Shown: positions 11,102 to 29,675 of the stretch, one piece after another
Layout: every line of letters begins with the position of its first letter
Numbering within the stretch: the stretch's first letter is position 1
Assembly: GCA_030523715.1 (NCBI GenBank)
Contig: JAUNHY010000010.1
Span: 1-32,861, forward strand
Direction of reading: 5' to 3'
Source: Candidatus Saccharimonadota bacterium
GTDB taxonomy: Bacteria; Patescibacteriota; Saccharimonadia; Saccharimonadales; Saccharimonadaceae
DNA length: 32,861 nt
The notes under the pieces: generated by a model
The model's input: only the letters and a program-made list of their open reading frames with translations
Databases searched by the model: none
What the model was told of the DNA's origin: nothing
Translations under genes and position numbers: made by a program

Positions 11102-11130
11102 ACTATACAAAAAGTTTATGCTAAAATCAA
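11102..11130 (-). promoter_or_regulatory. Promoter of the main pilin gene
   Basis: Minus strand: TTGATT (11130-11125), 17-nt spacer, TATAGT (11107-11102). The predicted start near 11095 gives a ~90-nt leader. Confidence 0.65.
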
Positions 11131-11171
11131 GTCCTATTTTTGACAATCTGTGGAAAAATGTCTTCTCTTCT

Positions 11172-12371
11172 CTATCCAATCGAGTTGACCAAGGAGTAAA
11201 TCGGGAATAGAACACCACCTACCAAGAGACCAGCGATAATTGCCAACATTACCATCATCAACGGTTCAATCATGGCCGAGATTGTTGCAATCTTTTCATC
11301 AAGCTCATCTTCAAATACCTGAGCCGCCTTACCAAGCATCTCATCCATCTTACCGGATTGTTCACCAATTGCCGCCATCTGGTAGATAAGAGGTTCGACA
11401 TAAGGTTTATCACGTAACGCATCAGAAAGCGCTTTGCCACCCTGCACCTCGCCAGCCGCTTCTTTAATCGAATCTTGCACCACAACGTTGTTCGTTGCAT
11501 CACCCGCAATATTCATCGTATCGAGCACCGCCACACCAGTAGAAAGCAGGATTTGCGAAATCCTCGCAAAGCGCGACATGTATAGAATTCTCATCAAACC
11601 ATTAAATAATGGCACATTAAGTTTGAAATTAGCCGCTGCCCTGATACCCGGCTCCGTCTTCAAGAATTGCATTAAGCCCATCACGATGAAAGCGATAATA
11701 ATCAAAGTAAGCCACCAGAAAGCAAAGATAAAGTCCTTAATTGCAACCAAAGCCTGCGTTAAGGCCGGTAGTTTTTCACCCAAATCTTCATAGAGCGACT
11801 CAACATGCGGCACAACCTCGACCATCATATATATAAATACGATAATCATAACTGCAAGCGTAATTAAAGGCATCGTTAAGGCGCCCTTAATCTTACTCAT
11901 CATCTTTTCATCCTTCTCCTCCTGAGAAGCAATACGACGCAGAGACTCATCGAGCGTACCCGAAACTTCGCCAGCGCGAATCAAAGACATGTAAACGTTG
12001 TTAAATACATCTGGATGCTTGCCAAACGAATCACCTAAGCTGTGACCAGCTTCCACGTCGGCTAGAATCTCTTCAATGACCGACTTCATTGCCTTGTTGC
12101 TCGTCTGTTCAGATACTGTACGCAAAGACTGCGCAATCGGCAAACCTGCGCCAACAAGCGTCGCGAACTGACGCGTAAAGTTAATACGGTCTTTCGAAGT
12201 GACTTTATTTAACTTATCGCCAAAACCAGAGCCCTCTTCGCGTAGGGTTTCCGGCACATAGCCACGATCCACCAAAAGCTTACCAGCAACACGTTCTGTT
12301 TCTGCCTGAATTGTACCTTTGATAACCTTACCGGTACTTGATTCCTTAGCTTTATAAGTAAATCGTTTCAT
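11172..12371 (-). CDS. pilC: Type IV pilus inner-membrane platform protein PilC
   Basis: 399 residues, the usual length. It anchors the assembly and retraction ATPases to the membrane and to the growing pilus. Two GspF domains are visible: residues ~65-190 (FTRQFATLVGAGLPIAQSL at its start) and ~268-395 (FARISQILLSTGVAVLDTM). Membrane helices lie at about 166-188, 212-235 and 370-395. The N-terminal ~50 residues (FTYKAKESSTGKVIKG) match the cytoplasmic head of the family. The ATG overlaps the pilT stop as ATGA, so the two are translationally coupled. No terminator separates it from the pilin leader. Confidence 0.95.
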   Translation of the reverse strand: MKRFTYKAKESSTGKVIKGTIQAETERVAGKLLVDRGYVPETLREEGSGFGDKLNKVTSKDRINFTRQFATLVGAGLPIAQSLRTVSEQTSNKAMKSVIEEILADVEAGHSLGDSFGKHPDVFNNVYMSLIRAGEVSGTLDESLRRIASQEEKDEKMMSKIKGALTMPLITLAVMIIVFIYMMVEVVPHVESLYEDLGEKLPALTQALVAIKDFIFAFWWLTLIIIAFIVMGLMQFLKTEPGIRAAANFKLNVPLFNGLMRILYMSRFARISQILLSTGVAVLDTMNIAGDATNNVVVQDSIKEAAGEVQGGKALSDALRDKPYVEPLIYQMAAIGEQSGKMDEMLGKAAQVFEDELDEKIATISAMIEPLMMVMLAIIAGLLVGGVLFPIYSLVNSIG

Positions 12372-13708
12372 CCGCGAGCTAACCTTTCAAATTCTTGCAA
12401 ATCGACCGCAAATTCCCTTGCGGCATCATAAGTAATCACGCCTGTTTGAATCAGCTTCACCAAAGTGCGATCCATCGTCTGCATACCCTGATCCGCACCT
12501 GTCTGAATAATCGTATCAAGCTGATGTGTTTTACCTTCACGAATCACCGAGCGCACAGCTGGGTTCGCAATCAAAATTTCTGCTGCCACCACGCGGCCAC
12601 CACCAATTGCTGGCACTAAGCGCTGAGCACAAATTGCCTGCAAAATGTTCGACAACTGCGAGCGCACCTGTGGCTGCTGATGTGGCGGGAACACGTCAAT
12701 CATACGGTCGATACTCTGAGAAGCGGAGTTAGTGTGTAGTGTTGCAAACACCAAGTGACCAGTTTCCGCAATCGTAATAGCTGCGGAAATCGTCTCGAGA
12801 TCGCGCATCTCACCAATCAATACTACATCTGGGTCTTCGCGGAGCGCCGAACGAAGTGCCGCCGAGAAGGAATAGGTATCATAGTGCACCTCGCGCTGTA
12901 CCACCACAGAGCGAATCGACTTATGCGTAAACTCAATCGGATCCTCGATTGTAATAATGTGAGCAGTCTTTTCGCGATTAATCTTATCAACCAAGGCCGC
13001 GAGTGTTGTTGACTTACCGGAGCCTGTAGGGCCAGTCACCAAAACCAAGCCACGTGGATAATCCGCAAAGCTCGTCACAATTGATGGCATACCAAGTTCG
13101 CTAATAGACTGAATTTCATTCGGAATTAAACGGAAAGCACCTGCAATATTACCCTTTTCATGGAAAGCATTTACACGGAAACGGCCTAAGTCGCCGAAAG
13201 AGAACGAATAATCAAACTCCTTATCCTTAATCAAAATCTGTTTCTGATCTTCTTCAAGCGTAGAGAAAACAAGGCGCTCAACAGTGGCTTCGTCCATATC
13301 GCCATAACCAGAGACCGGCTGCAAAGCACCATCAATACGCAAAATTGGCGGCAAACCTACCTGTAAATGAAGGTCGGATGCTTTCGTACGTACGCACTCC
13401 TCGAGAAGGCTCTCGATACGAACCTCGCTATTTGGAATTGTGCTCTGCATTGCAGCCTGCGCAAAAGTCATTGGAGGTGGCGTTGGCGCCTGTTGTGGCG
13501 GCATCGGTAAAGCGCTATTCTGAGAAACTCCCATCTGAGCCGGAGCCGCGGTAGGAATTGCTTTTACTGCCGGTGGCATACCTTGTTGAGCTGGTGCTTG
13601 AGGCATCGCCTGTTGCATAACCTGTTGCTGCGGCATTGCTACTGGAGCTGCCGTAGGTGCTTGTGGCATAGCAGCCGCACCCATATTCACCTGCCCACTT
13701 TGTTCCAT
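12368..13708 (-). CDS. pilT: Pilus retraction ATPase PilT with extended N-terminus
   Basis: 446 residues. The hexameric ATPase of type IV pili. The Walker A motif is VTGPTGSGKSTT, followed by the Asp box (ITIEDPIEF), Walker B (DPDVVLIGEMRD) and His box (ETGHLVFATLHT). The N2 domain starts near residue 95 (RIESLLEECVRTKASDLHLQVG), as in PilT rather than PilB. The first ~90 residues are Met/Pro/Gln/Ala low complexity, absent from standard PilT (~345-370 residues). ATG 13708 is chosen because TACAAT ends at 13716, only 7 nt upstream; the open frame to 13771 lies before the transcription start. No PilB is in the window. Confidence 0.93.
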   Translation of the reverse strand: MEQSGQVNMGAAAMPQAPTAAPVAMPQQQVMQQAMPQAPAQQGMPPAVKAIPTAAPAQMGVSQNSALPMPPQQAPTPPPMTFAQAAMQSTIPNSEVRIESLLEECVRTKASDLHLQVGLPPILRIDGALQPVSGYGDMDEATVERLVFSTLEEDQKQILIKDKEFDYSFSFGDLGRFRVNAFHEKGNIAGAFRLIPNEIQSISELGMPSIVTSFADYPRGLVLVTGPTGSGKSTTLAALVDKINREKTAHIITIEDPIEFTHKSIRSVVVQREVHYDTYSFSAALRSALREDPDVVLIGEMRDLETISAAITIAETGHLVFATLHTNSASQSIDRMIDVFPPHQQPQVRSQLSNILQAICAQRLVPAIGGGRVVAAEILIANPAVRSVIREGKTHQLDTIIQTGADQGMQTMDRTLVKLIQTGVITYDAAREFAVDLQEFERLARG

Positions 13709-13715
13709 ATACATT

Positions 13716-13744
13716 ATTGTACTTATGTTTAAAGAAAAATGCAA
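13716..13744 (-). promoter_or_regulatory. Promoter of pilT-pilC, leaderless
   Basis: Minus strand: TTGCAT (13744-13739), 17-nt spacer, TACAAT (13721-13716), then ATG 13708 after 7 nt. Confidence 0.7.
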
Positions 13745-13756
13745 ATAAAAACTCGT

Positions 13757-13859
13757 CATTTTTCCAAACACCCACGCGAGTATCCGCAGGTTACGACCGA
13801 GGACGAACGAAAAGCCGCCCGTAACGACGGGACGGCCTTGAGTGTTTCCTAGAAAAATG
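13757..13859. repeat. Long palindromic intergenic element, copy A
   Basis: Outer arms pair (13757-13771 with 13842-13859). Plus-strand core 13782-13840 contains ATCCGCAGG, hairpin P2 (GGT-TACG-ACC, 13789-13798), a linker GAGGACGAACG, and hairpin P3 (CCCGT-AACG-ACGGG, 13818-13831, on an AAGCCG/CGG-CTT base). It shares this core with copies B and C. On the minus strand P3 is followed by TTTT and may also terminate rpoD, whose stop is 6 nt away. Family not recognised. Confidence 0.75.
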
Positions 13860-18691: not shown

Positions 18692-18720
18692 AATATACCA
18701 TATATTTAGATTCTTGACAA
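18692..18720 (-). promoter_or_regulatory. mscL operon promoter
   Basis: Minus strand: TTGTCA (18720-18715), 17-nt spacer, TGG-TATATT (18697-18692). Its -35 box occupies the same bases as the -35 box of the divergent promoter at 18714. Confidence 0.7.
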
Positions 18721-18742
18721 ATCTACATATCTGTGCTAAAAT
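18714..18742 (+). promoter_or_regulatory. Strong promoter of orphan gene 18826
   Basis: TTGACA (18714-18719), 17-nt spacer ending TGTGC, TAAAAT (18737-18742). The predicted start is near 18749. The ~77-nt leader begins with a hairpin (TTCAC 18751-18755 with GTGAA 18769-18773). Confidence 0.8.
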
Positions 18743-18825
18743 AATACAGATTCACGCCTTTTGGGAGAGTGAAGGATCCTTTTCATCTTTAGTTTTTCAA
18801 ATAAAGCACAGGGGAGGTGTGCAAT

Positions 18826-19461
18826 ATGGCAGGAAAGATCATTCACCTGCAGCCGGCTCACTTCTCTTTCGAGAAGCGTGGCGGCTACAACGTAATTTTA
18901 CCCGAGATAATCGCGCAATTCTTCGAATACATGCGTGGAATCGGCCCGGATGCTTTTATCATAAAAAGCTATACCTTCTCAGAGGGTAACACCGGACCAT
19001 CCAGCACCGAGATCATGCGCGGTTGTGTACCAACAGAGGCAATCGACCGCAAATCTATTCGCCAAGCACAGCTCTCGCTCGAAGCAGAGCTCGACAATCA
19101 GGCCGAAGAAGCCAGTAAGCGCATCAAGGGGCGTACGTCCCGTGTATTCCAGAACCGCAACCACGGTAACGATGTCGTATACGTAAGATGCCGCAATGGC
19201 ATCATGGGCTGCGGTTGGTATGACAGCGCTCATACTGTCCGCAAAGGTCTGAAAATGGCCGCCTTCATGCTCTACGCACTCGGCACCATCAATGGCGACA
19301 CCGACGAAACGCTTCTCACCGCCATCTACAACTATTTGCCCTACGATAGTGAGCTCAGCTCAAGCGAAGCGGATAAAGCGACCGACATTATTGTCCGCGT
19401 CCTTACCGATAAAGCACTTCAGCAGAATAGCCCTTTCCGTCGGCCGTATGTGACTAACTAA
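18826..19461 (+). CDS. Orphan soluble protein, G/C-rich codons
   Basis: 211 residues, not recognised; no signal peptide or membrane helix. It is mixed alpha/beta in character, with Cys residues in RGCVPTE, YVRCRNGIMGCGWYD and a central basic stretch (ASKRIKGRTSRVFQNRNHG). The ATG at 18826 has a strong SD (GGGGAGGTG) 7-8 nt upstream; the in-frame GTG at 18817 lies inside the SD. Codons are richer in G and C than those of neighbouring mscL or argS. It has its own strong promoter, leader and terminator, so it is a one-gene unit. It may be a horizontally acquired or highly expressed accessory protein. Confidence 0.8.
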   Translation: MAGKIIHLQPAHFSFEKRGGYNVILPEIIAQFFEYMRGIGPDAFIIKSYTFSEGNTGPSSTEIMRGCVPTEAIDRKSIRQAQLSLEAELDNQAEEASKRIKGRTSRVFQNRNHGNDVVYVRCRNGIMGCGWYDSAHTVRKGLKMAAFMLYALGTINGDTDETLLTAIYNYLPYDSELSSSEADKATDIIVRVLTDKALQQNSPFRRPYVTN

Positions 19462-19469
19462 AGAAATAT

Positions 19470-19498
19470 CCCCGGCTGCATCCGCAACCGGGGTTTTT
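19470..19498 (+). terminator. Terminator of gene 18826
   Basis: CCCCGG (19470-19475) pairs with CCGGGG (19488-19493); inner GC pairs; then TTTTT. Confidence 0.85.
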
Positions 19499-19511
19499 CA
19501 TGCTATTTTTT

Positions 19512-19546
19512 CAAAAAAAGAATGCCCCGGCCGCAATTGGCCGGGG
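19512..19546 (-). terminator. Terminator of gene 19609
   Basis: 8-bp GC-only stem (CCCCGGCC 19525-19532 with 19539-19546). The A run at 19513-19519 gives a seven-T run on the minus strand. Confidence 0.85.
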
Positions 19547-19608
19547 ACTTTGTTGATGAGTGTTCGCCTAGGTTATTCAGGCAGTGGCCGAACTTCGACC
19601 GATGAATC

Positions 19609-20016
19609 CTATGCGCTCACGCGCAGCTCGTAACCCATCTCCTGGGCACAGGCTTTGGCCAGCTCGACGGCGCCAGGCATATCCTTGTAAACTTCCGCAA
19701 TCTCGCGGAGTTCCTTGATGCCCCTTGCGGTGACGATATCCTGAATCATGGCGCCATAATCCATGGCTTCGGACGCCTTCACGGGCACCACCATGCCGAT
19801 ATCATCATCGATAACGCCTTCGTACATGGCCACCTCCAGCATCTTCGTGGTGATGTCTGCCAACGCGCGTGCCTTTGGTGATTCATCTTCGAATCCGAGT
19901 ATTTTGGCATCATATGCCGCCAACTCTTCATCGGAGTCGGGGACGATGGAGAGCCCCATCACTCCCAGTTCGTTTCTTGCCGTCATTTTCTGGCGGACTT
20001 CCTTGGATTGAAACAT
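19609..20016 (-). CDS. Orphan small acidic protein, G/C-rich codons
   Basis: 135 residues, not recognised. Acidic and mainly helical (EELAAYDAKILGFEDE, IKELREIAEVYKD), with no signal peptide or membrane span. ATG 20016 is preferred, with GAGGT about 5 nt upstream; the in-frame GTG at 20022 overlaps that SD. The gene has a near-consensus promoter ~190 nt upstream, a long folded leader and its own GC-rich terminator. Codon choice (GCC, CTC, AAG) differs from argS next to it and resembles the other orphan units in this window. Confidence 0.78.
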   Translation of the reverse strand: MFQSKEVRQKMTARNELGVMGLSIVPDSDEELAAYDAKILGFEDESPKARALADITTKMLEVAMYEGVIDDDIGMVVPVKASEAMDYGAMIQDIVTARGIKELREIAEVYKDMPGAVELAKACAQEMGYELRVSA

Positions 20017-20204
20017 ACGCACCTCATCTTCCTGCCAGCTCTCCAGCCGGCTGTCTAATCTTAGCCCGTGGCGAGTGGCTTCGCTTAGGGCTAGATTTCC
20101 CTCCCCTCAGAGAAAACTAGCCCCAAACTGGATGCTATACGTATAAGAATAAACTCAATCAACGATTAAAGGTCATGACTTACTAGATATAATAAGCCAT
20201 AACC
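20017..20204 (-). promoter_or_regulatory. Folded leader of gene 19609
   Basis: A 12-bp stem with two G-U pairs (20204-20193 with 20182-20171) begins near the transcription start. Later a stem pairs GGGCTA-type arms at about 20095-20085 and 20065-20055, enclosing GCGA/TCGC. No known riboswitch is recognised. Confidence 0.55.
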
Positions 20205-20206
20205 CT

Positions 20207-20235
20207 ATTGTATCACACTTTGACTAAAAAGTCAA
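20207..20235 (-). promoter_or_regulatory. Strong promoter of gene 19609
   Basis: Minus strand: TTGACT (20235-20230), 17-nt spacer ending TGTGA, TACAAT (20212-20207). Confidence 0.82.
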
Positions 20236-20245
20236 GATGCTTAAG

Positions 20246-21928
20246 CTACATGCTCGCCGGAATCTCGATACCCAATAGATCAAGCGCCCGCGCCAACACG
20301 AAGTCTGCTTTGCGAATCACATCTAAACGCGCTGAGCGTTCTGCATCTTCTGCCGTCGAAATCGGCGTCTTTTCGTAATAGCGATTTAACTCTTGCGCTA
20401 GCTCAAAGGCAAAACCAGCAATCTTGTGCATCTCAAAGTTCTCGCATACACTCGCTACTATTTCTGGGAATTTCAAAAGCAACTGCAATACACTCTTCTC
20501 TGCCGCGAAATCATAGTCGGCATAATCCACCGACGCAAAATCAGCATTTTTCTCGAGAATCCTGCGCAAACGCACATCTGCATACTGACAGAATGGCCCC
20601 GATTGGCCCGTCAACGCAAAAATTTTATCTGGGTCGTACAAAATTCCCGTTTTACGATCTGCCACAAAGTCGGAATATTTAATCGCCCCCACCGCAATCT
20701 TCGCAATATCCTCATTGGCAAGTTTGCCACCAAAATTCTCGCGCACGCGTTTTTCGGCATCATTTAGCAGCTCTTCCATCAAAACTACCCCTTTACGCGA
20801 CGACATTTTTTCGCGCTTCCCCTCTGGGTTAATCTGGTCAATCGTGCCAAACCACAAGTGATAATTGTCTACCTTTAGGCCAATTTTCTTCGCTAACGCA
20901 AACAGCTGCTCAAAATAGAATTTCTGCTCCGCTCCCACCGCATAGACAATCTTATCCGGATGGATATTTTCCACGCGATACAGCATACAGCCAAGATCCG
21001 TCGTCGCATATAGCGCCGTACCATTGCTCTTAAGCATCAGCATTGGCACATCAATACCATACTCATCCAAGCGACAAATAATCGAACCATCCTCGTTACG
21101 TTCAAAAATACCATCTTTAACCAGTTGTTCAACTTTCTCTTTACCAAGCTCCACGAAACAACTTTCGCCCATCTCAAGATCAGTATTAATCCCTAGGCGC
21201 CCCATAATTTCATGCGTGTGCGCCATCGAAATCTCTTTAAAATGCTCAGACAACTTTACCGCTTCCGGGTCCTTCGCCTCGAGTTTCTTCAGCCAATCCT
21301 GTACCCGCTCGGCCAGTTCTTGCTTGCCAGCCTTTTCTTCTTCCTTCAAGTCGGCCTTCATCTGGATATAAATATTGCCAAGATCATAGATTGTTACCTT
21401 ATCAGCATCAATCCCCGAACGTTTAAAACCAGTAGCCCAAATCCCAAACGGCGTGCCCACGTCACCTAAGTGATTATCCGTCACCACTTTCCAGCCATTT
21501 GCTTCAAGCACTTTCTTGGCCGCCCAACCCTGTGTGCCTGGACGCAAATGCCCCACCGAATACGGCTTAGCGATATTTGTGCTCGGAAATTCCGAGATTG
21601 CTACCTTGCTGGCGCCAGAATAATTATCACCATAATGCTCCGACCAAGCCGCATCTAACTGCGCTTTCAAAGCTTTTCCGGATACGCCAATATTAATAAA
21701 ACCTGGCCCCGCAATTGACAATTCAAAACCACAATCCCCCAGTTTTTGGATAATTTCTTCGGCAATTTGACGCGGATTCTTACCAACTTGGCGCGCAAGA
21801 CGCATCGCCACATTCGTCGAATAGTCGCCTTCGATATCTGCCGGCACCGCCGCGAAATCAACCACGACATCATCAACGCCATATAAATCGTTGATAACTC
21901 CCTTGATTTGATCCTTAAAATTATCCAT
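20246..21928 (-). CDS. argS: Arginyl-tRNA synthetase
   Basis: 560 residues, class I synthetase that charges tRNA-Arg. The N-terminal ~85 residues form the Add-1 domain that binds the tRNA elbow (VAMRLARQVGKNPRQIAEEI). The HIGH-type motif is SVGHLRPGTQG, preceded by the substrate-binding SEFPSTNIAKP. The KMSKS-type loop is present as KREKMSSRKG, a full KMS signature that many ArgRS lack. The C-terminal anticodon-binding domain has the ALFA-like end (VLARALDLLGIEIPASM). ATG 21928 is leaderless; the in-frame ATG at 21937 touches the -10 box. Two tRNA-Arg genes lie in the same window. Confidence 0.97.
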   Translation of the reverse strand: MDNFKDQIKGVINDLYGVDDVVVDFAAVPADIEGDYSTNVAMRLARQVGKNPRQIAEEIIQKLGDCGFELSIAGPGFINIGVSGKALKAQLDAAWSEHYGDNYSGASKVAISEFPSTNIAKPYSVGHLRPGTQGWAAKKVLEANGWKVVTDNHLGDVGTPFGIWATGFKRSGIDADKVTIYDLGNIYIQMKADLKEEEKAGKQELAERVQDWLKKLEAKDPEAVKLSEHFKEISMAHTHEIMGRLGINTDLEMGESCFVELGKEKVEQLVKDGIFERNEDGSIICRLDEYGIDVPMLMLKSNGTALYATTDLGCMLYRVENIHPDKIVYAVGAEQKFYFEQLFALAKKIGLKVDNYHLWFGTIDQINPEGKREKMSSRKGVVLMEELLNDAEKRVRENFGGKLANEDIAKIAVGAIKYSDFVADRKTGILYDPDKIFALTGQSGPFCQYADVRLRRILEKNADFASVDYADYDFAAEKSVLQLLLKFPEIVASVCENFEMHKIAGFAFELAQELNRYYEKTPISTAEDAERSARLDVIRKADFVLARALDLLGIEIPASM

Positions 21929-21937
21929 GATACGCAT

Positions 21938-21966
21938 ATTTTACCATCTTTTTACCCCTGTCGCAA
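21938..21966 (-). promoter_or_regulatory. argS promoter, near-leaderless
   Basis: Minus strand: TTGCGA (21966-21961), 17-nt spacer ending TGG, TAAAAT (21943-21938). ATG 21928 follows after 9 nt. Confidence 0.7.
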
Positions 21967-21988
21967 ACAAATGCAAGCATAAAGACTA

Positions 21989-22017
21989 TTGACAATTTTG
22001 CCAAACTATGCTACAAT
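21989..22017 (+). promoter_or_regulatory. Strong promoter of orphan gene 22138
   Basis: TTGACA (21989-21994), 17-nt spacer ending TATGC, TACAAT (22012-22017). The predicted start is near 22024. Confidence 0.85.
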
Positions 22018-22023
22018 AAGACT

Positions 22024-22137
22024 ATAACTTTGCACAATTCTGTGCTAAAGTTATTTTTACGCTCTTCTCCGCATAGAGGAGAACGTAAGACACCCATTGT
22101 GTCGGAAACGACAAGAACTTTTAAAGGAGATGATCTG
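22024..22137 (+). promoter_or_regulatory. Folded leader of gene 22138
   Basis: It starts with a 13-bp hairpin with one bulge (ATAACTTT-GCACA, 22024-22036, with TGTGC-T-AAAGTTAT, 22041-22054) followed by TTTTT, so it looks like a terminator at +1. Next come TTCTCC/GGAGAA (about 22067-22085) and two overlapping options, GACAC/GTGTC or TGTCG-GAAA-CGACA (about 22089-22113). The SD AAAGGAG is at 22123-22129. Confidence 0.6.
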
Positions 22138-22674
22138 ATGAAGAACATCATCGAGAAGTCAAAGAAGTACATCGAACTCAGCGGCAAGGAAGCCGCCGGC
22201 TCCAAGCTGACCGCTGAAGAGGCTAAGCAGGTTCAGGAACTCCGCCGTGAGCTCTCTGCCCGCGGTCTCGACCCGCAGCATGTTGTGGGGCTCGATTACA
22301 GGGCCCTTGTTTTCGCTTATAAGTCCAAGGTGGCCACTTTCGTCGCGATGCGTGAGAACGACAAATACTATGCGTCTACCCGCTACTACCTGCAGTCCGT
22401 CGGCATTGAGCCCGACCAGCAGCGTCTCGGTCGTATGTTGGCTGAGTTCAAGCAGAACGCCAAGAGCATCGCCAAGAAGAAGACCACCAGGGGGGTCTGC
22501 ATGGCCCGCCAGGAACGCGAACGCGCCATCACGGCTATCGTCGCGGAAATTTCCGAGGAGGACGCCCAGCGCGCCGCCGAGGAACTGGCTGCCGAAGAAA
22601 AGGCCCGCCAGGAACGCGAGCGTATGTCCCGCGAAAGCATCACTGCCTTCGCCGCCGAAGCTTTCGGCGTCTAA
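22138..22674 (+). CDS. Orphan helical protein, G/C-rich codons
   Basis: 178 residues, not recognised. Strongly helical and charged; the C-terminal third is almost all Ala, Glu and Arg with two copies of ARQERER and likely forms a coiled coil. One cysteine (GVCMARQ). No signal peptide or membrane segment. ATG 22138 has an AAAGGAG 8 nt upstream; the frame is open to 22030 but that covers the leader hairpins. Codons favour C and G endings (CTC, AAG, CGC, GCC), unlike argS and pyrG on either side. One-gene unit with strong promoter, leader and terminator. Confidence 0.8.
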   Translation: MKNIIEKSKKYIELSGKEAAGSKLTAEEAKQVQELRRELSARGLDPQHVVGLDYRALVFAYKSKVATFVAMRENDKYYASTRYYLQSVGIEPDQQRLGRMLAEFKQNAKSIAKKKTTRGVCMARQERERAITAIVAEISEEDAQRAAEELAAEEKARQERERMSRESITAFAAEAFGV

Positions 22675-22742
22675 GCACCACTTGCGTCAGGGAGTGGCTT
22701 CCCTTTACCGATTTTCATCACCCTTTCTCATCTTCCACCGCC

Positions 22743-22791
22743 GGACTCCTGGAGTCCAGGGGCGACCGTTCCCGCCGGCCGCCCCATTTTT
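22743..22791 (+). terminator. Terminator region of gene 22138
   Basis: A small hairpin (GGACTC/GAGTCC, 22743-22757) precedes the terminator stem GGGGCG (22759-22764) with CGCCCC (22780-22785), inner CCG/CGG, then ATTTTT. A pyrimidine-rich spacer of ~65 nt lies between it and the stop codon. Confidence 0.8.
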
Positions 22792-22802
22792 AATGCCAAA
22801 AA

Positions 22803-24395
22803 TTATTTAACGCTCGCGCGAATTAAACCCTCAAACAACGGATGCGCACGATATGGTCGACTCCTAAACTCTGGATGCGCCTGCGTTGCAATAAAGTAGT
22901 CACATTTTGGCGCTTCCACATACTCCACCAATTTTCCATCTGGCGAAGTGCCAGACACTACCAAGCCACCTTTTTCAATTTCCTTCAAAAACTTCTGATT
23001 CACCTCATAGCGATGACGATGGCGTTCAATCACATCTTCGGCTCCGTACAACTTCTCCGCTAAACTGCCTTTCGTAAGATGGGCTGGATAGTCGCCTAAG
23101 CGCATTGTGCCACCAGTGCTTTCCTTGCCCTTCTGGCCTTCCATGATGTAAACCACATTCGCATCTGCCGGCGCATCAAATTCTTCCGAATTTGCATTCT
23201 TTACGCCACCCATACGCGCCGCCGCGATTACCGCCGTCTGCAAGCCAAGACAAAGTCCAAGATATGGCTTATTACGCTTCAGACAATAAGTCGCTGCCGC
23301 AATTTTCCCCTCTACGCCACGAATCCCAAATCCACCTGGCACCACGATGCCATCCACGCCCGCAAAATCTTTTTCGGTAGCTTTTTCGGCATCAATCCAA
23401 ATCGTATTCAGCTTTACGCCCGTCTTCCAGGCCGCCGCTTTCAAAGCTTCCGTCACTGACAAATATGTGTCCGTATTGTCGATGTATTTTGCGACCAAGC
23501 CAATCTTCACCTCTTTTTTCGGATCTGACTCGATATTCTTCACTAATTCTTCCCACTGACTCATGTCTGGATCGCCATGATCGATAAACCTCTCAAGTGG
23601 CGCCAATACGCCACCTTTTACGGCATTCAGTGGTACTTCGTAAACAGACTTTGCATCTGGCATCAAAACTACTGCATCTTCGGACACAGCACAAAATGTT
23701 GCCAACTTCGAGGCCACCTGTGGTGCCTTAATTACCTTATCGACATCCATGCGCGCCACTACCATATCTGGAATAATGCCAAATTCGCGCAAATCACGTA
23801 GCGAATTTTGCGCCGGTTTCGTCTTAAACTCCTGCGAGGTCGATAGCCAAGGCACATAGCATACATGCACATACAAGCAATTTTCGCGCCCCACGCGCGT
23901 ACCAAATTCACGAATCGCCTCCACAAAATGCGAACCTTCAAGATCGCCGATAGTACCACCAATCTCAACTATATGGACATCGGAACCAAAGTATTCTGCG
24001 TTATCAAGGAAAGTTTGCTGCACTAAGCCAGTTACGTGCGGCACCAACTGCACCGTGTGGCCACCAAACTCGCCTGCGCGCTCCGCATCAATCAATTTCT
24101 TATAAAGTTTTCCAGATGTCCAGATGGAGTTGCCGGTCATCTCTTCATCAAGGAAACGCTCATAATGACCCAAATCTAGGTCCGTCTCGGCGCCATCACG
24201 CGTCACAAAGCATTCGCCATGTTCGCGCGGATTCAAAAGTCCTGCGTCGACATTAAAATAAGGGTCGCATTTCTGCATCGAAACTTTTAGACCCTTCGCC
24301 TTTAATATTGCACCGATACTTGCCGCCATGATTCCCTTCCCAACACCGGAAATCACGCCCCCTGTCACAAAAATGTATTTCGTTTTTGTTTTCAT
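22803..24395 (-). CDS. pyrG: CTP synthase
   Basis: 530 residues. Converts UTP to CTP using ATP and glutamine. The N-terminal amidoligase domain (1-~265) has the P-loop-like VTGGVISGVGKGI and CDPYFNVDAG. The C-terminal class I glutamine amidotransferase (~290-530) shows GGFGIRGVEGK, the nucleophile Cys in YLGLCLGLQ and the catalytic His/Glu in THPEF-type AHPEFRSRP. A strong SD (AAGGAGG) precedes ATG 24395, unlike the leaderless neighbours. No other pyrimidine pathway gene is nearby, in line with a cell that salvages pyrimidines (inference). The promoter is unclear; TATAAA near 24428-24423 is one option. Confidence 0.97.
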   Translation of the reverse strand: MKTKTKYIFVTGGVISGVGKGIMAASIGAILKAKGLKVSMQKCDPYFNVDAGLLNPREHGECFVTRDGAETDLDLGHYERFLDEEMTGNSIWTSGKLYKKLIDAERAGEFGGHTVQLVPHVTGLVQQTFLDNAEYFGSDVHIVEIGGTIGDLEGSHFVEAIREFGTRVGRENCLYVHVCYVPWLSTSQEFKTKPAQNSLRDLREFGIIPDMVVARMDVDKVIKAPQVASKLATFCAVSEDAVVLMPDAKSVYEVPLNAVKGGVLAPLERFIDHGDPDMSQWEELVKNIESDPKKEVKIGLVAKYIDNTDTYLSVTEALKAAAWKTGVKLNTIWIDAEKATEKDFAGVDGIVVPGGFGIRGVEGKIAAATYCLKRNKPYLGLCLGLQTAVIAAARMGGVKNANSEEFDAPADANVVYIMEGQKGKESTGGTMRLGDYPAHLTKGSLAEKLYGAEDVIERHRHRYEVNQKFLKEIEKGGLVVSGTSPDGKLVEYVEAPKCDYFIATQAHPEFRSRPYRAHPLFEGLIRASVK

Positions 24396-24531
24396 TGGGC
24401 ACCTCCTTAATTAGCCCACCTTATTTTATAACCCTAGCATAAGCTATTTTTTATGCCCCCGCAAGAACTGATTTTTACAATTTTTATGCCTTAATACTTG
24501 CACAACTACACTATATCTAGCGTAGTATAGT

Positions 24532-24673
24532 AACATTCCAACACTATAATCGCGTGTCAGTATTGAACTACCGTTTTGGACATGCGCAGGCTACGGCCGA
24601 GCCTAAGCGCGAGTCGCCCGTAACGACAGGCCGACTCGACGCGGTCCAAACCGGCAGATTAATACTGAATGTT
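24532..24673. repeat. Long palindromic intergenic element, copy C
   Basis: Arms: TCAGTATT (24557-24564) with AATACTGA (24661-24668); CCGTTTTGGAC (24571-24581) with GTCCAAACCGG (24644-24654, one mismatch); outermost AACATTC (24532-24538) with GAATGTT (24667-24673). Core 24582-24643: ATGCGCAGG, P2 (GGC-TACG-GCC, 24589-24598), linker, P3 (GAGTCG/CGACTC base, CCCGT-AACG-ACAGG, 24617-24630). It occupies most of the 291-bp space between pyrG and the divergent gene at 24687, whose -10 box touches the right arm. Confidence 0.75.
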
Positions 24674-24678
24674 ATAAT
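24670..24678 (+). promoter_or_regulatory. Extended -10 promoter, leaderless
   Basis: TGT-TATAAT (TATAAT 24673-24678); ATG 24687 follows after 8 nt. It abuts palindrome C. Confidence 0.7.
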
Positions 24679-24686
24679 CATAAGTA

Positions 24687-25664
24687 ATGAAATGTTTCTA
24701 TTTTTCTAAATACCGTTTCTACAAGCCAGAGGTCAAAAAAGAGCTCAAATTCTTCTTAATGAGCGATATTCATTTCAGCCCTAAAGTTACTTCCAAAACT
24801 CTTGAAATTGTCGCTAAGAAAGCCGCCTCTGAAAAACCAAATTACATTCTTATTGCCGGCGACCTCGTCGATTCTCTTGATGCTATTCAAAGCAAAGCCA
24901 GCCTCAAGCGCCTTACAGCTTGGCTTTCCCATCTCGGCGAAATTGCCCCAACCCTTATCGTGCTCGGCAATCACGATTATTATCGCAAAAATCCCGAATA
25001 TTCCGGTGTCTTCTCTGGCAAGCGTCACTGGTACGCCGAAGAGCCGCATCTTCTCGCCGATGCCATCAAAGACATTGATAATGTCCGTCTGCTCGACAAC
25101 GATGTTTACGAAGACAAAAATGCCTACATTTTCGGATTTACCCAAAGTCCAGATTATTTTCAGTTCGACCGCGACGAAAACCGCACCACTTCTATATTCC
25201 ACCCTGGAAGCGAAGATAAAAGCATCCTACTTTACGACCTTCATCAACTCGACCACAAGCTAATCCGCGACTTACCAAAACATAAAGCCAAAATCGCTCT
25301 GCTTCACTCTCCTGTATTTTTGTTCGATTCTGAAGTATCCAGTTATCTTTACGAGTTCGACTTTTTCGTAACTGGCCACATGCATAGCGGCGTCGTTCCA
25401 CCAGTCGTGAATGACTTTTGGCGTTCCGATCGCGGACTCATGGCCCCAGGCAAACTCTTCTTCCCGCGCCATGCTCGCACCCACATTACCGAACCGTACC
25501 AAAAAACCATCGTCTGCGGCGCAATTTCTACTATCCAAGACAGCGCCAAGCCAATCACTTTTCTTAATGGCGCCTTCCCCATCAACATTGCCACACTCGA
25601 ATTTTCGCATCGCGAAACTCTCGAGCGTAAACCCGATATTAAGCACCAATATCTTAGTTTTTAG
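24687..25664 (+). CDS. Calcineurin-like metallophosphoesterase
   Basis: 325 residues. All metal-binding motifs of the family are visible: SDIHFSP (DxH), AGDLVDS (GDxxD), LGNHDYY (GNHD), LLHSP and GHMHSG (GHxH), so a two-metal phosphodiesterase/phosphatase centre should be active. The layout is close to the YkuE/YaeI-like group that acts on membrane-associated or nucleotide phosphoesters, but this protein has no N-terminal membrane helix and its substrate is unknown. Leaderless start at ATG 24687. Its last 11 nt overlap the 3' end of the convergent gene 25654. Confidence 0.9.
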   Translation: MKCFYFSKYRFYKPEVKKELKFFLMSDIHFSPKVTSKTLEIVAKKAASEKPNYILIAGDLVDSLDAIQSKASLKRLTAWLSHLGEIAPTLIVLGNHDYYRKNPEYSGVFSGKRHWYAEEPHLLADAIKDIDNVRLLDNDVYEDKNAYIFGFTQSPDYFQFDRDENRTTSIFHPGSEDKSILLYDLHQLDHKLIRDLPKHKAKIALLHSPVFLFDSEVSSYLYEFDFFVTGHMHSGVVPPVVNDFWRSDRGLMAPGKLFFPRHARTHITEPYQKTIVCGAISTIQDSAKPITFLNGAFPINIATLEFSHRETLERKPDIKHQYLSF

Positions 25665-26433
25665 CGCTCTCCAAAATCTTCTTCAAATCCGACTTCAACT
25701 CGTCGTAATACTTCGTCGTCTCTTCGTCGTCCGTATTGCCAATAATCTCAAAATCCGCTCCATCAATCTTAATCGTGATTAATTTCTGACGGCCGCTCTT
25801 AAATACTGGCGCCTGGCGCTGGCTGATTTCCAGAAGCTTGTCGTAATTCTTATAGACATAATCCTTCAATGCGCCCCGCGTACGTTCGCGGTTTTCGCCA
25901 ATTTTCTTTCCATTTGGTGCCACTAACACTTCGCCAACGCAGCCAAAATCCTCAATTTTCTTTGCCTTTTCATCCGAACTCGGCGTATATTCACGTACTC
26001 GCGCCACAAACTGCAATGGTTCCATCTCGCGATAGACTCTCACTCTCACGAAAGTCGTCAGACTCGCATCTGCAGAAATCATCACCTTATTCGCAATGCG
26101 CTTAAATTCGCCGTTAAAGACTTCAATAATATCCTTTGCACGCGGATCTTTCATTAATGCTGGCACATCTTTCGTCCAGTAGTCGTATACTTCTCTATCC
26201 ATTACCAATGGCAATTTTTGCTTGGCATACTGAGGAGTTAAATAGCACCAGAAAATATACTTCGCGTGTGACAAAGGCCCACCACCCGCCAACACGAGCA
26301 TCGCGGCGTTATACATCATTTCCCTAGCTTTACCATCAAGTAGACCTTTCGCCTCAGGACTCATCTGTCTCTCAAAATAATCAGCGAGGTCGCTTGCAAT
26401 CTCTTTTTGACTACGTCGTTTTGCCTTATTCAT
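25654..26433 (-). CDS. Protein of unknown function
   Basis: 259 residues, not recognised. Soluble and charged, with no signal peptide or clear membrane span. N-terminal half helical (SDLADYFERQMSPEAKGLLDG, quoted in part), then a segment with FWCYLTPQYAKQ and VYDYWTKDVPALMKD. A conserved-looking central stretch has FVARVREYTP and DFGCVGEVLVAPNGKK. The minus-strand -10 box is at 26464-26459 and an AAGGAG stands 13 nt before ATG 26433 (or 10-11 nt before the TTG at 26436), so the start is uncertain by one codon. The 3' end overlaps the metallophosphoesterase gene tail to tail with no terminator between. Confidence 0.75.
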   Translation of the reverse strand: MNKAKRRSQKEIASDLADYFERQMSPEAKGLLDGKAREMMYNAAMLVLAGGGPLSHAKYIFWCYLTPQYAKQKLPLVMDREVYDYWTKDVPALMKDPRAKDIIEVFNGEFKRIANKVMISADASLTTFVRVRVYREMEPLQFVARVREYTPSSDEKAKKIEDFGCVGEVLVAPNGKKIGENRERTRGALKDYVYKNYDKLLEISQRQAPVFKSGRQKLITIKIDGADFEIIGNTDDEETTKYYDELKSDLKKILESAKN

Positions 26434-26458
26434 CAAAAATTTAATACTCCTTATGCTA

Positions 26459-26464
26459 ATTATA
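26459..26464 (-). promoter_or_regulatory. -10 box of gene 25654
   Basis: Minus strand TATAAT (26464-26459), followed by a short leader with SD AAGGAG (26452-26447). Confidence 0.55.
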
Positions 26465-26493
26465 ACTTATGCCACGAATAATGCCACAAAAAT

Positions 26494-26603
26494 AGCTTCA
26501 TAGTTAAAATTGTGTAGATTAGTAGTTTCTTCGACTCTCGCGCGGTTATTGACCGAGCGACGAGGAGAAAAACTGCTGAGATACGCAATTTTAACATGAA
26601 GCT
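26494..26603. repeat. Long hairpin next to tRNA-Arg; possible fourth palindrome (copy D)
   Basis: Arms of 18 bp with one bulged base: AGCTTCAT and GTTAAAATTG (26494-26512) pair with CAATTTTAAC and ATGAAGCT (26586-26603). Weaker pairing continues inward. The middle has CGGT-TATTG-ACCG (26543-26555) then GAGCGACGAGG, similar to P2 and linker of copies A-C, but the P3 hairpin is not clear. The right arm touches the tRNA CCA end. On the minus strand the arm is followed by ATTTTT, so it may also terminate the tRNA transcript. Confidence 0.6.
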
Positions 26604-26678
26604 TGGTAGGCCCGGCTGGAATCGAACCAACATTGTACCCTTAGAGGGGGTATGTCCTATCCGTTGAACGACGGGCCC
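26604..26678 (-). tRNA. tRNA-Arg (anticodon UCU) with C33
   Basis: 75 nt with encoded CCA. Acceptor GGGCCCG/CGGGCCT, D arm GTTC/GGAC, anticodon stem TACCC/GGGTA, T arm GTTGG/CCAGC around TTCGATT all pair. The 7-nt anticodon loop is CCTCTAA, giving anticodon TCT for AGA codons. Position 33 is C instead of the nearly universal T. Confidence 0.88.
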
Positions 26679-26704
26679 TTCCCCTATAATCTTACCATAA
26701 AAGA

Positions 26705-26713
26705 TGTTATAAT
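26705..26713 (+). promoter_or_regulatory. tyrS promoter
   Basis: TGT-TATAAT (TATAAT 26708-26713). A ~22-nt leader with SD AAAGGAG (26730-26736) precedes ATG 26742. Confidence 0.65.
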
Positions 26714-26741
26714 TATAAAGTTAATAACTAAAGGAGTATTC

Positions 26742-27956
26742 ATGAAATTATCCGAAGAACTCCAGTGGCGCGGTTTCGTAGCCGAGCACACACTGGACCA
26801 GATATCAGACCTAGACAAAGCTCCGCGTAATTTCTATTGGGGCACCGACCCTAGTGCCGATTCTCTTCATATCGGTCACCTCGCCGCCCTAATGATGTGC
26901 GCTTGCTTCGTTCGCCACGGTTATACTCCTTACTATCTTGTCGGCGGTGCTACCGGTCAAATCGGCGACCCAAAAGATACTACCGAGCGCGACCTCAAGG
27001 ATTTAAGCGAAATTGAGCAAAATAAAGCCGCTCTTGCCGCTCAAATTATTCGCGTTACGCATTCCCCTGCCGATACTCAGATTCTCGATAATAATGACTG
27101 GTTCAAAGATATCAAATTTTTGCCATTCCTCCGTGAAGTTGGCAAAGCTTTCAGTATGACGCAGCTCCTCGATCGTCAGTTCGTCCAAAAACGCATTGGC
27201 GAAGGCGGCTCCGGTATCAGTTACGCCGAGTTTAGTTACACCCTCATTCAAGGTTACGATTTTCTACACCTCTTCCGCACGCATAATATCGATCTCCAGC
27301 TTTGCGGCGCCGATCAATATGGCAACTGTACCTCAGGCATTCACCTCATTAAGCGTCTCGAGGACGCCAACGCCGATTGTTACTCTTGTCCACTTATCAT
27401 CGATAAAGTAACTGGCCGCAAGTTCGGCAAGTCCGAAGGCAACGCCGTCTGGCTCGATGCCAATAAAACCAGCATCTTCGATTTCTATCAGTTCTGGCTC
27501 AATCAGTCCGATGACGCGCTCGAAGATTACTTCAAATACTTCACCTTTATCATGCCAGAAGAGCTCAATCAAATTCTCGCCGAACATCGCGAAAATCCAG
27601 GTGCTCGCCTTGGCCAAAAACGCCTCGGCTTCGAGGTTACTAAGGTTGTTCACGGCGAAGAAGCCGCCAAACAGGCCGAAAAACTCACCGCCTTCCTCTT
27701 TGGCGATGGCAAAATCGAAGAATTATCTTCCGAAGACATCGAACTTCTCGCCAAGAGCTTCCCTACTACTACTGTCGGTAAGACTCTTGTTGATATCCTC
27801 ACCGAAACCGGCCTCGCCAGTAGTAAGGGCGAAGCTCGCAAACTCATCTCTGGTAACGCTATTTCCGTAAATGGCGCCAAGATTACCGAAGATTCCACAA
27901 TTGCCAGCCTTTCTCTTATCAAAAAAGGCAAAAATAAGTTCGCGCTTGTCCGCTAA
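26742..27956 (+). CDS. tyrS: Tyrosyl-tRNA synthetase
   Basis: 404 residues, class I synthetase charging tRNA-Tyr. The catalytic domain shows YWGTDPSADSLHIGHL with the HIGH motif, the tyrosine-binding CGADQYGNCTSG, and the KMSKS-type loop KFGKSEGNAVWL, where Lys-Phe-Gly-Lys-Ser replaces KMSKS as in the TyrRZ-like group. The C-terminal ~65 residues are an S4 RNA-binding domain (SSKGEARKLISGNAISVNGAKI, quoted in part as KGEARKLISGNAISVNG). ATG 26742 is set by the SD; the longer frame to 26652 runs through the promoter and into the tRNA gene. Confidence 0.97.
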   Translation: MKLSEELQWRGFVAEHTLDQISDLDKAPRNFYWGTDPSADSLHIGHLAALMMCACFVRHGYTPYYLVGGATGQIGDPKDTTERDLKDLSEIEQNKAALAAQIIRVTHSPADTQILDNNDWFKDIKFLPFLREVGKAFSMTQLLDRQFVQKRIGEGGSGISYAEFSYTLIQGYDFLHLFRTHNIDLQLCGADQYGNCTSGIHLIKRLEDANADCYSCPLIIDKVTGRKFGKSEGNAVWLDANKTSIFDFYQFWLNQSDDALEDYFKYFTFIMPEELNQILAEHRENPGARLGQKRLGFEVTKVVHGEEAAKQAEKLTAFLFGDGKIEELSSEDIELLAKSFPTTTVGKTLVDILTETGLASSKGEARKLISGNAISVNGAKITEDSTIASLSLIKKGKNKFALVR

Positions 27957-27968
27957 CTATTAGCATTA

Positions 27969-27997
27969 TTGACTTTTTTGGCCAAATGTGCTATAAT
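27969..27997 (+). promoter_or_regulatory. Strong promoter of orphan gene 28093
   Basis: TTGACT (27969-27974), 17-nt spacer ending TGTGC, TATAAT (27992-27997). The predicted start is near 28004. Confidence 0.87.
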
Positions 27998-27998
27998 G

Positions 27999-28092
27999 AA
28001 AAAGTGCGGTCATTTCGACCTGCACTTTTTCGTGTCTTAGACGCGAAAACGGTAACCCCGAGCACTTTTTTAGCCATGAAAGGAGCAGTTGT
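27999..28092 (+). promoter_or_regulatory. Folded leader of gene 28093
   Basis: AAAAAGTGC (27999-28007) can pair with GCACTTTTT at 28022-28030 (enclosing GGTC-ATTTC-GACC) or with a second copy, GCACTTTTTT, at 28062-28071. A GTC-TTA-GAC hairpin lies between. SD AAAGGAG is at 28079-28085. Confidence 0.55.
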
Positions 28093-28584
28093 ATGGATTC
28101 TTATTACCAGAACCTCGTCGATCAAGAAATTCAGCGCATGCGTGATAGAATCACTATCACCATGTACGAAGGCCACACCGTTACCACTGTGAACAAGGAT
28201 GGACGCACTGTGCGCTATTCCGAAGAGAGCGCCATCGAGGCCACCAACCGCGAAATCGCGGAGCGCTATGCCATCGGCAAGCAGCTCGAGCACTGCGTCG
28301 CTATCGACCCCGATACCGGTCATGCCTACGACCTGGATTTCCTCGCTCAGTTCTGCAAGAACATCTATGAACAGCCCTCGTCACCGCGCCCTCTCGAGAG
28401 TGCGCTCTACGTAATTGGCGAAACCATCGCACCGGCCAGCTATCCGCCGGAGGATCTGCAGCGCATCGTCGACATCTTCACCGACCTGCAGCAGCACGCC
28501 CATCTCAACATCTACCTCTATAATGAGCTTGGCCACGTCCTCCGCCGCAGCGCTATCGCGCACGAGCGTTACGCCACCGCTTAA
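28093..28584 (+). CDS. Orphan soluble protein, G/C-rich codons
   Basis: 163 residues, not recognised. Mildly acidic, without signal peptide or membrane span. The N-terminal half has a short beta-like segment (ITITMYEGHTVTTVNKDG) and then helices; the C-terminal half is mostly helical (EDLQRIVDIFTDLQQHAHL). ATG 28093 lies 7 nt after AAAGGAG. Codons end largely in C or G, in contrast to tyrS immediately upstream. One-gene unit with near-consensus promoter, folded leader and strong terminator, like genes 18826, 22138 and 28880. Confidence 0.8.
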   Translation: MDSYYQNLVDQEIQRMRDRITITMYEGHTVTTVNKDGRTVRYSEESAIEATNREIAERYAIGKQLEHCVAIDPDTGHAYDLDFLAQFCKNIYEQPSSPRPLESALYVIGETIAPASYPPEDLQRIVDIFTDLQQHAHLNIYLYNELGHVLRRSAIAHERYATA

Positions 28585-28593
28585 CATGGTTTC

Positions 28594-28622
28594 ATCCCCG
28601 CCCACCAACGGCGGGGATTTTT
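28594..28622 (+). terminator. Terminator of gene 28093
   Basis: 9-bp stem ATCCCCGCC (28594-28602) with GGCGGGGAT (28610-28618), then a T run. Confidence 0.92.
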
Positions 28623-28657
28623 CTATTCCGAAAATGCTTAAAAATAGCAAAATACTA

Positions 28658-28686
28658 TTGACTTTTTTGCAAAAGTGTGATAGTAT
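28658..28686 (+). promoter_or_regulatory. Strong promoter of orphan gene 28880
   Basis: TTGACT (28658-28663), 17-nt spacer ending TGTGA, TAGTAT (28681-28686). The predicted start at about 28693 coincides with the first base of a hairpin. Confidence 0.82.
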
Positions 28687-28692
28687 ATATAC

Positions 28693-28879
28693 GTACTCGC
28701 AAATGTGAGTACAGTACCTTAATTCTCAGAGTAAATTCACTATTAATTCGACATCTTGTCGAGCGTTAAGCGCATCAACCTCCTTAGTGCGTTTTATGCT
28801 CGACAAGAGCCCAACTTTGCATTCTTGCAAGTTGGAAGAATCTCTATCTTATAGAAAGGGCCCCTAGGAAGAAGGGGTA
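28693..28879 (+). promoter_or_regulatory. Long folded leader of gene 28880
   Basis: Four hairpins in order: GTACTCGC-AAAT-GTGAGTAC (28693-28712); an 11-bp stem TCTTGTCGAGC (28754-28764) with 28798-28808, enclosing CGCA/TGCG whose loop contains ACCTCCTTA (28778-28786); CCAACTT-t-TGCA type stem (28811-28821 with 28826-28835); and CCCCT/AGGGG (28861-28865 with 28873-28877), which covers the purine-rich SD region. The 295-bp gap before this gene is filled by the terminator, promoter and this leader. Confidence 0.65.
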
Positions 28880-29605
28880 ATGGTGAAAATCATGGAAAAG
28901 AAAGTGAAGACCCTGATCTACGTCGCTGCTGACGGCTCCAAGCTGGTCAATCCCGCTGCGTCCGTTCTGCCCGCTACGACCGATATGGTCATCACCAGCT
29001 ACACCGACGACAGCCTGGTCATCGATGCTCCGATCGTGGGCGAAGTGTCCACCGAACCGCAGCGTCAGACCGTCAACGAGCTGGTCGCCGACTGGCTGGG
29101 CAAGCGCAAGATGAAGATCAGCTCCGCGAAGGGCGATTTCCGCATTCGCGAGGAAGTCCGCAAGGAAGACGGCGACGAAATCCCGAGCCTGATCATCAAG
29201 GCTCCCGACGGCCGCCCCACTGACGAGCAGCTGCACGTCGTGGTCGGCAAGGCCATCAAGTGGCTGAATGCCACCGGCGTCAAGCCCGAAGCCAAGACCG
29301 AGCCCAAGCCCGAACCCAAGAAGGATGACGGCAAGAAGTCCACTCCGGCTCCGGCTCCCAAGCCTGACCCCAAGAACGACGATGGTCAGAAGTCCACTCC
29401 CGCACCGGCGCCGGATCCCAAGCAGGATGACGGCAAGAAGAGCGCTCCGGCTCCGGCTCCCAAGCCCGAACCCAAGAAGGATGACGGCAAGAAGAGCGCT
29501 CCGGCGCCCGATCCCAAGCCTGCGGCTCCGACCTACGCCACCAAGTGGGATCCCAAGAAGTCCATCGAGGAGAACCTCGATGCCATCATGGGCCCCGCCG
29601 ACTAA
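28880..29605 (+). CDS. Orphan protein with Lys/Pro/Asp repeat linker, G/C-rich codons
   Basis: 241 residues, not recognised. Residues ~1-130 form a folded-looking alpha/beta region (KTLIYVAADGSKLVNP, LIIKAPDGRPTDEQLHVVVG). Residues ~135-215 are about four tandem units of the pattern PxPKxDDGxKSxPAPAP, a flexible charged linker. A short C-terminal segment follows (TKWDPKKSIEENLDAIMG). No signal peptide or membrane span. Start ATG 28880, with GTG 28883 and ATG 28892 as in-frame alternatives; the SD is AGGAAG or AAGGGG. Codons are strongly C/G-ending (CTG, AAG, CCC). It is a one-gene unit. The tandem repeats are near-identical in DNA and could vary in number. Confidence 0.8.
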   Translation: MVKIMEKKVKTLIYVAADGSKLVNPAASVLPATTDMVITSYTDDSLVIDAPIVGEVSTEPQRQTVNELVADWLGKRKMKISSAKGDFRIREEVRKEDGDEIPSLIIKAPDGRPTDEQLHVVVGKAIKWLNATGVKPEAKTEPKPEPKKDDGKKSTPAPAPKPDPKNDDGQKSTPAPAPDPKQDDGKKSAPAPAPKPEPKKDDGKKSAPAPDPKPAAPTYATKWDPKKSIEENLDAIMGPAD

Positions 29606-29641: not shown

Positions 29642-29675
29642 CAGCCACGCTTTGAAAGGAGCGTGGCTTTCTCTT
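29642..29675 (+). terminator. Terminator of gene 28880
   Basis: 8-bp stem AGCCACGC / GCGTGGCT with a 10-nt loop, followed by a pyrimidine-rich TTTCTCTTT. Confidence 0.65.

Follow-up and report, generated by a model that had tools for sequence, protein, structure and literature searches.

Five orphan gene units sharing a promoter, hairpin-rich leaders and a codon dialect in a Saccharibacteria genome

Why should five small genes of no recognizable family, each behind a strong promoter of its own, stand among housekeeping genes such as argS, pyrG and tyrS in a Saccharibacteria chromosome? Saccharibacteria are obligate epibionts, and their host-interaction proteins are largely unknown. We addressed this question in a stretch of 32,861 nucleotides (nt) from a gut or rumen Saccharibacteria genome (GenBank contig JAUNHY010000010.1; hereafter the window), which is the complete contig C20 of an assembly of 888,513 bases in 20 contigs. 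We established the regulatory architecture, inheritance, evolutionary rate and codon dialect of the five units, and we propose that they form a regulon that is specific to the genus and vertically inherited, and whose stand-alone accessory proteins serve in interaction with a host or with rivals, a reading to which we give about even chances; the products are probably abundant and probably act on the host or on rivals.

The five open reading frames (ORFs) of the original prediction were all present, and we designated them P1 to P5 (genes 18826, 19609, 22138, 28093 and 28880 of the window). Their units are composed as follows, with promoters placed by pattern match, terminators by sequence and the conserved RNA hairpin by covariation; GC3 is the G+C fraction at third codon positions, aa denotes amino acids and SD the Shine-Dalgarno sequence.

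18714..18742, + strand: P1 promoter, TTGACA-N17-TAAAAT with an extended -10 (TGTGC)
18743..18825, + strand: P1 leader with 5' hairpin
18826..19461, + strand: P1 ORF, 211 aa, GC3 0.62
19470..19498, + strand: P1 terminator, CCCCGGCTGC..GGGG followed by T5
19511..19547, - strand: P2 terminator, convergent with the P1 terminator
19609..20016, - strand: P2 ORF, 135 aa, GC3 0.67
20017..20206, - strand: P2 leader, 190 nt, with 5' hairpin (~20170-20205), motif GACCTTTAA (~20166-20174), long conserved hairpin and pre-SD hairpin
20077..20134, - strand: conserved structured RNA hairpin in the P2 leader (model R1, 59.5 bits)
20207..20235, - strand: P2 promoter, TTGACT-N17-TACAAT
21989..22017, + strand: P3 promoter, TTGACA-N17-TACAAT
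22018..22137, + strand: P3 leader with hairpins, motif GAACTTTTAAAGGAG adjoining the SD
22138..22674, + strand: P3 ORF, 178 aa, GC3 0.76, helical
22758..22791, + strand: P3 terminator
27969..27997, + strand: P4 promoter, TTGACT-N17-TATAAT
27998..28092, + strand: P4 leader with 5' hairpin AAAAAGTGC..GCACTTTTT
28093..28584, + strand: P4 ORF, 163 aa, GC3 0.72
28594..28622, + strand: P4 terminator
28658..28686, + strand: P5 promoter, TTGACT-N17-TAGTAT
28687..28879, + strand: P5 leader, 193 nt, with 5' hairpin, motif GTACCTTAA and long hairpin CTTGTCGAGC..GCTCGACAAG
28880..29605, + strand: P5 ORF, 241 aa, GC3 0.80, with a K/P/A/D-rich repeat
29645..29667, + strand: weak P5 terminator candidate, a hairpin with an interrupted T-run

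The matching strong promoters that had been predicted were borne out, as TTGACWN14TGNTANNWT precedes all five genes. Two further claims stood in part: the SD sequence is clear in P1, P3 and P4 but weaker in P2 (GAGG) and without a GGAG-type match in P5, and a terminator of hairpin plus T-run follows four of the five genes, P5 having an interrupted T-run only. The promoter pattern (TTGACW-N14-TGnTAnnWT) occurred at six sites in the window versus 0.04 expected from shuffles, and the sixth site lies before window 7915-. In the 767 kb of this genome that were scanned as stretches (~86% of the genome), there were 65 sites, compared with 0-2 (about 1) in an order-1 simulation of the same dinucleotide make-up, and the commonest letters were TTGACTTTTTAGAAAATTTGTGCTATAAT. 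With genes called by a home-made scorer of amino-acid log-odds and SD sequences, whose short calls are partly doubtful, the promoter was found at 25 of 59 genes with GC3 > 0.57 versus 23 of 655 others (odds ratio 20, p = 3e-17). We refer to high-GC3 (> 0.57) genes with the promoter as the class; the predicted further loci of the same promoter-leader layout were thus found genome-wide, and a terminator lay 3' of 76% of class genes versus 30%. The prediction of accessory, unrecognised proteins held for most class members, 17 of 20 being without a Pfam family above cut-off versus 4 of 10 control genes. Promoter and GC3 were linked again in two further species of the genus but not in two sampled other genera of the order, in which the promoter was as infrequent as 3 sites per 100 kb. 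A tRNA-Met gene is likewise preceded by the class promoter (L037:14743-14908, + strand), which is therefore not exclusive to orphan proteins.

The predicted excess of C- and G-ending codons over neighbours was confirmed, and extended to ribosomal proteins, by a genome-wide comparison: the five genes all exceeded the 95th percentile of GC3 (0.607; genome median 0.455), with argS, pyrG and tyrS at 0.48-0.52 and 22 ribosomal-protein and translation-factor genes at about 0.48 (range 0.41-0.56). In a codon table that is partly a consequence of the GC3 cut-off, since the class was set by GC3 and promoter jointly, CCC accounted for 0.35 of Pro codons in the class and 0.49 in the five genes, compared with 0.03 in the rest of the genome and 0.00 in ribosomal proteins, and CCA for 0.09 in the class versus 0.77 in ribosomal proteins. 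Likewise, Leu CTG reached 0.39 in the class, 0.08 in the rest of the genome and 0.00 in ribosomal proteins; CCC and CCG together made up 0.75 versus 0.05, and GTG 0.31 versus 0.07; CAG was favoured, most A-ending codons were avoided, and GAA and GAT were nearly unchanged. An independent check on this dialect was provided by the five window genes and by the positional orthologues of relatives, the latter picked by promoter only, in which CCC stood at 0.30 versus 0.08 in housekeeping genes and CTG at 0.26 versus 0.10. A P1-like gene elsewhere in the same genome (L028:1131-1808, - strand, contig C12), which adjoins P-type ATPase genes, has GC3 0.40, ordinary codons and no class promoter, an indication that the dialect is a property of the unit rather than of the protein family.

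Ordinary high expression, with GC3 raised by translational selection as in ribosomal proteins, would fit the strong promoters and the C-ending codons for Phe, Ile, Asn, His and Thr, which were raised in the class and in ribosomal proteins alike. However, the class differed from ribosomal proteins in its preferences for Pro, Leu, Gln, Val and Ala, many amino acids shifted differently (CCA, CCC and CTG among the codons concerned), the codon shifts of the two sets correlated only moderately (0.46), and highly expressed genes are normally slow-evolving, whereas class genes are fast. Because ribosomal proteins lack the dialect, simple high expression fails to account for it, and we consider this explanation distinctly unlikely. 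Codon adaptation of the ribosomal-protein kind was rejected on the differing preferences. High expression of the five genes as such is plausible from their promoters and leaders, but their codons are unlike those of ribosomal proteins.

The GC excess was limited to the ORFs (ORF GC 0.52-0.62), with leaders (0.39-0.47) near genomic composition (0.42). Since the dialect is also kept in relatives, neither recent transfer nor a uniform pressure on GC explains it well, and we infer that selection on mRNA stability and on translation under scarcity are the two best-fitting causes. According to selective-charging theory, the tRNAs of little-used codons remain charged when amino acids run out. A dialect of codons rare in ribosomal-protein mRNAs could then allow these proteins to be made in host-detached cells, which is consistent with the low use of CTG, CCC+CCG and GTG in ribosomal proteins, with their high use in the class, and with the presence of Leu-CAG, Pro-CGG and Gln-CTG tRNAs in the genome; however, no Pro-GGG tRNA was seen in the 767 kb, so that CCC may simply be slow. 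Taken by itself, this explanation appears unlikely. So, to the same degree, does mRNA stability alone, by which dialect and hairpins would reduce AU-rich RNase sites and block decay from the 5' end, the proteins being diverse and without a common theme. The avoidance of A-ending codons and the 5' hairpins in most leaders regardless of GC3 speak for it, but the nearly unchanged GAA and GAT indicate that the bias is codon-specific rather than uniform, and the common rapid evolution of the proteins would be left unexplained.

The units are inherited with the chromosome. Among 61 genomes (own included; the relatives are metagenome-assembled genomes of Saccharibacteria from goat, sheep, horse and other samples), homologues were found in 24 for P1, 3 for P2, 12 for P3, 5 for P4 and 4 for P5, and in none of the 24 other genera of the order that were covered; homologues were thus found inside the genus only. 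The sites at mscL/argS, argS/pyrG and tyrS/HAD-like gene carry same-strand genes in relatives, mostly behind the same promoter, and these are kept in order and orientation in about ten species, even without remaining sequence similarity. Leader lengths are also largely kept, at mostly ~70-105 nt for P1, ~165-212 nt for P2 and ~170-220 nt at the P5 position. Two relatives carry the P1-P2 pair, together with the P2 hairpin, away from mscL-argS (G035:C1 and G036:C5; loci L014, L013 and L140), in G036 adjoining another class gene; thus, P1 and P2 have occasionally, if rarely, been relocated jointly as a module.

These observations bear on the view that a GC-rich donor recently supplied the genes as mobile cassettes of the moron or integron type. 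Such an origin would agree with the single-gene units with their own promoter and terminator, with the deviating GC3 and with the P1-P2 pair found away from argS, but it is largely refuted by the conserved positions across the genus, and it further conflicts with the host-genome composition of leaders and flanks, with the retention of the dialect in relatives and with the lack of viral-contig or phage relatives of P1 and of plasmid relatives of P3; we regard it as very improbable. The original prediction had offered recent acquisition as one of its options, which is contradicted by the conserved positions, genus-wide homologues, host-like leader GC and dialect in relatives; its interchangeable cassettes do not accord with the finding that, across the genus, the units keep their order and orientation and are flanked by the same housekeeping genes. 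The units resemble phage morons and other autonomous accessory gene units in that each is a single gene with its own promoter and terminator, a deviating composition and a function unrelated to its neighbours. Unlike morons, the units yielded no phage relatives in the searches, they are inherited at fixed places and not mobile at the scale tested, and their composition deviates inside the ORF only. A phage or plasmid origin was also sought directly and rejected, with no PHROGs match, no viral-contig or phage match for P1 and no plasmid match for P3. The argS-tyrS interval spans ~5 to 25 kb in relatives (L080, L081, L082, L083 and L091), and some of them encode there very large proteins (1,300-2,300 aa) that look secreted. 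Elsewhere in the window, positions 3645-7085 (- strand) encode a 1146-aa protein with many similar repeats and an anchor-like C-terminal end, which resembles a surface adhesin, and pilin-like, prepilin peptidase-like, PilC-like and PilT-like genes, assigned by eye, make up a type IV pilus locus at 7107-13771.

The proteins themselves change far faster than their surroundings. Between the relatives G034 and G026, identity was 95% for argS, 97% for orn and 92% for pyrG, compared with 56% for P1 and 44% for P2, and nonsynonymous divergence (pN) was 0.29 for P1 and 0.42 for P2 versus 0.04 for argS; pN remained below synonymous divergence (pS), and the reading frames are therefore under purifying constraint. 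The positional orthologues of P2 adjoin argS and are barely alignable. In keeping with the original description of the proteins as unrelated and unrecognised, there was no similarity among the five at E < 1e-3 and no significant match in Pfam, NCBIfam, PHROGs or PADLOC; the lack of any PADLOC match also led us to reject defence genes. P1 is predicted to form a compact alpha/beta domain (pLDDT 87, pTM 0.85) whose order of elements, helix, two strands, helix, three strands, helix, is similar to that of the Roadblock/LC7 and longin folds. The structural match to these folds was weak (best Foldseek E 4.9e-3, TMq 0.20-0.35; VIA Z 7.1), P1 had no sequence match in the PDB, and the fold search with P3, which is predicted to be helical, gave no significant match.

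Folding z-scores confirmed the predicted leader hairpins: the first ~38 nt had a mean z of -2.7 in the high-GC3 class and -2.5 at ordinary GC3, compared with -0.04 in upstream control DNA, and the 5' hairpin thus opens the transcript whether GC3 is high or not. In the long P2 hairpin (RNAalifold structure), 11 of 19 pairs showed changes on both sides, with 27 compensatory cells observed versus 7.4 in shuffles and 95% pairing versus 36-60% in slid controls. The P2 leader gave no Rfam match at gathering score. Model R1 found the hairpin beside P1/P2 in all genus loci examined and gave a convincing match just once in the 767 kb searched of the own genome; therefore, the other units share the architecture and not the R1 RNA family. 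Between G034 and G026, the P2 leader is ~86% identical and the aligned P2 codons ~50% at the nucleotide level, so that the hairpin leader is better conserved than the protein behind it. In P2 leaders of G034, G026 and G030 (L083, L089 and L090), the long hairpin is preceded by ACTAAGTCGAA, a stretch with the potential to pair with the 5' arm of that hairpin, TTCGGGTTAGT; a two-state leader is possible in this clade and is not evident in the window (equivalent 20017-20206). A leader laid out like that of P2 (183 nt) precedes an unrelated orphan of GC3 0.81 in the same genome (L026:8816-9741, + strand, contig C10), in the order 5' hairpin, GCACATTGAGAA, long hairpin and pre-SD hairpin, with no match to model R1.

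The P2 leader carries a G-A-C-TT-A motif ~30 nt downstream of the -10 box. The generalized motif G[TC]AC[AC]TTRR occurred, across unrelated units, in 7 of 44 own leaders versus 0.1 expected and in 13 of 49 leaders of relatives versus 0.5, counts that are optimistic given that the motif was chosen by eye and tested against shuffles of the same leaders; an unguided search of the leaders returned a T-rich pattern only. Promoter, hairpin and a short G-A-C-TT-A motif ~30 nt past the -10 box recall the hairpin and boxA leader of rrn operons, which acts in NusB-NusE antitermination, and NusB is encoded in the genome (PF01029, E 5.7e-33). However, GYACMTTRR differs from the rrn leader sequence of the lineage, ACTTAACAATTTAG, the CTTT core is mostly absent, and class transcripts carry one short gene. 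The resemblance to boxA is thus partial; the rrn leaders compared were those of the lineage, and the own 16S gene is not in the 20 contigs of the assembly. At the 16S loci of G013 and G021 (L105 and L107), there is an apparent RNase III processing stem 3' of 16S, followed in L107 by a terminator-like sequence, and 16S may there be unlinked from 23S.

Taken together, each unit combines a single strong promoter of the extended -10 type with a hairpin-rich leader and, in most cases, a terminator of its own, and encodes one small protein in its own dialect; the class transcript typically opens with a 5' hairpin, often followed by G[TC]AC[AC]TTRR and, before P2, by the long conserved hairpin. The chromosomal places are kept across the genus, with proteins diverging several-fold faster than their neighbours under residual purifying selection. 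Promoter and hairpin-capped leader may give an abundant, long-lived mRNA, and the dialect, with its codons avoided by ribosomal-protein mRNAs, may be kept by selection on mRNA stability or on translation in a special state, such as host detachment. The products would then work where the cell meets its bacterial host or its rivals, and recognition there could force rapid change; they might be surface-acting, injected or immunity proteins, for instance. A comparable situation is known for fast-evolving effector or immunity families recognized by gene structure, such as the aphid bicycle genes (PMC9168663), whose gene architecture is kept while the proteins have diverged beyond recognition; here, what is conserved is the position together with the promoter and the leader.

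Several findings weigh against a regulon devoted to host or rival interaction. The proteins showed neither a secretion signal nor a toxin fold nor a host-directed domain, and their C-termini and net charge were ordinary, with no clear enrichment of C-terminal degrons or secretion signals. In the P1 and P2 comparison dS was saturated, which precludes a test of positive selection. The promoter precedes just 25 of the 59 high-GC3 genes, and 23 promoter genes have ordinary GC3. Finally, the class includes members of ordinary Pfam families (DegV, Bax1-I and Band_7/SPFH), and the dialect is not exclusive to orphans. A link of the class to the host-dependent lifestyle is possible. The type IV secretion system (T4SS) of Saccharibacteria has an unknown role, and effector delivery has been suggested (PMC11665869; PMC12102498). 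In its most far-reaching form, which we put forward as a tentative and unlikely extension, the proposal would be that an ultrasmall epibiont maintains a genus-wide, effector-like regulon in a translational dialect of its own. Dozens of single-gene units with growth-gene-avoided codons and hairpin-capped leaders would then allow fast-changing host-interaction proteins to be made in a special state, when cells are free-living, starving or newly attached, and perhaps even inside the host cell.

Homology searches miss host-interaction proteins if these evolve too fast. The signature of promoter, leader and codons described here relies on architecture alone to mark ~25-60 candidate genes in one genome, and other species of the genus show it as well; the P2 leader hairpin lies outside all Rfam families. 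The split dialect lends itself well to the question of why a genome should encode one class of its genes differently.

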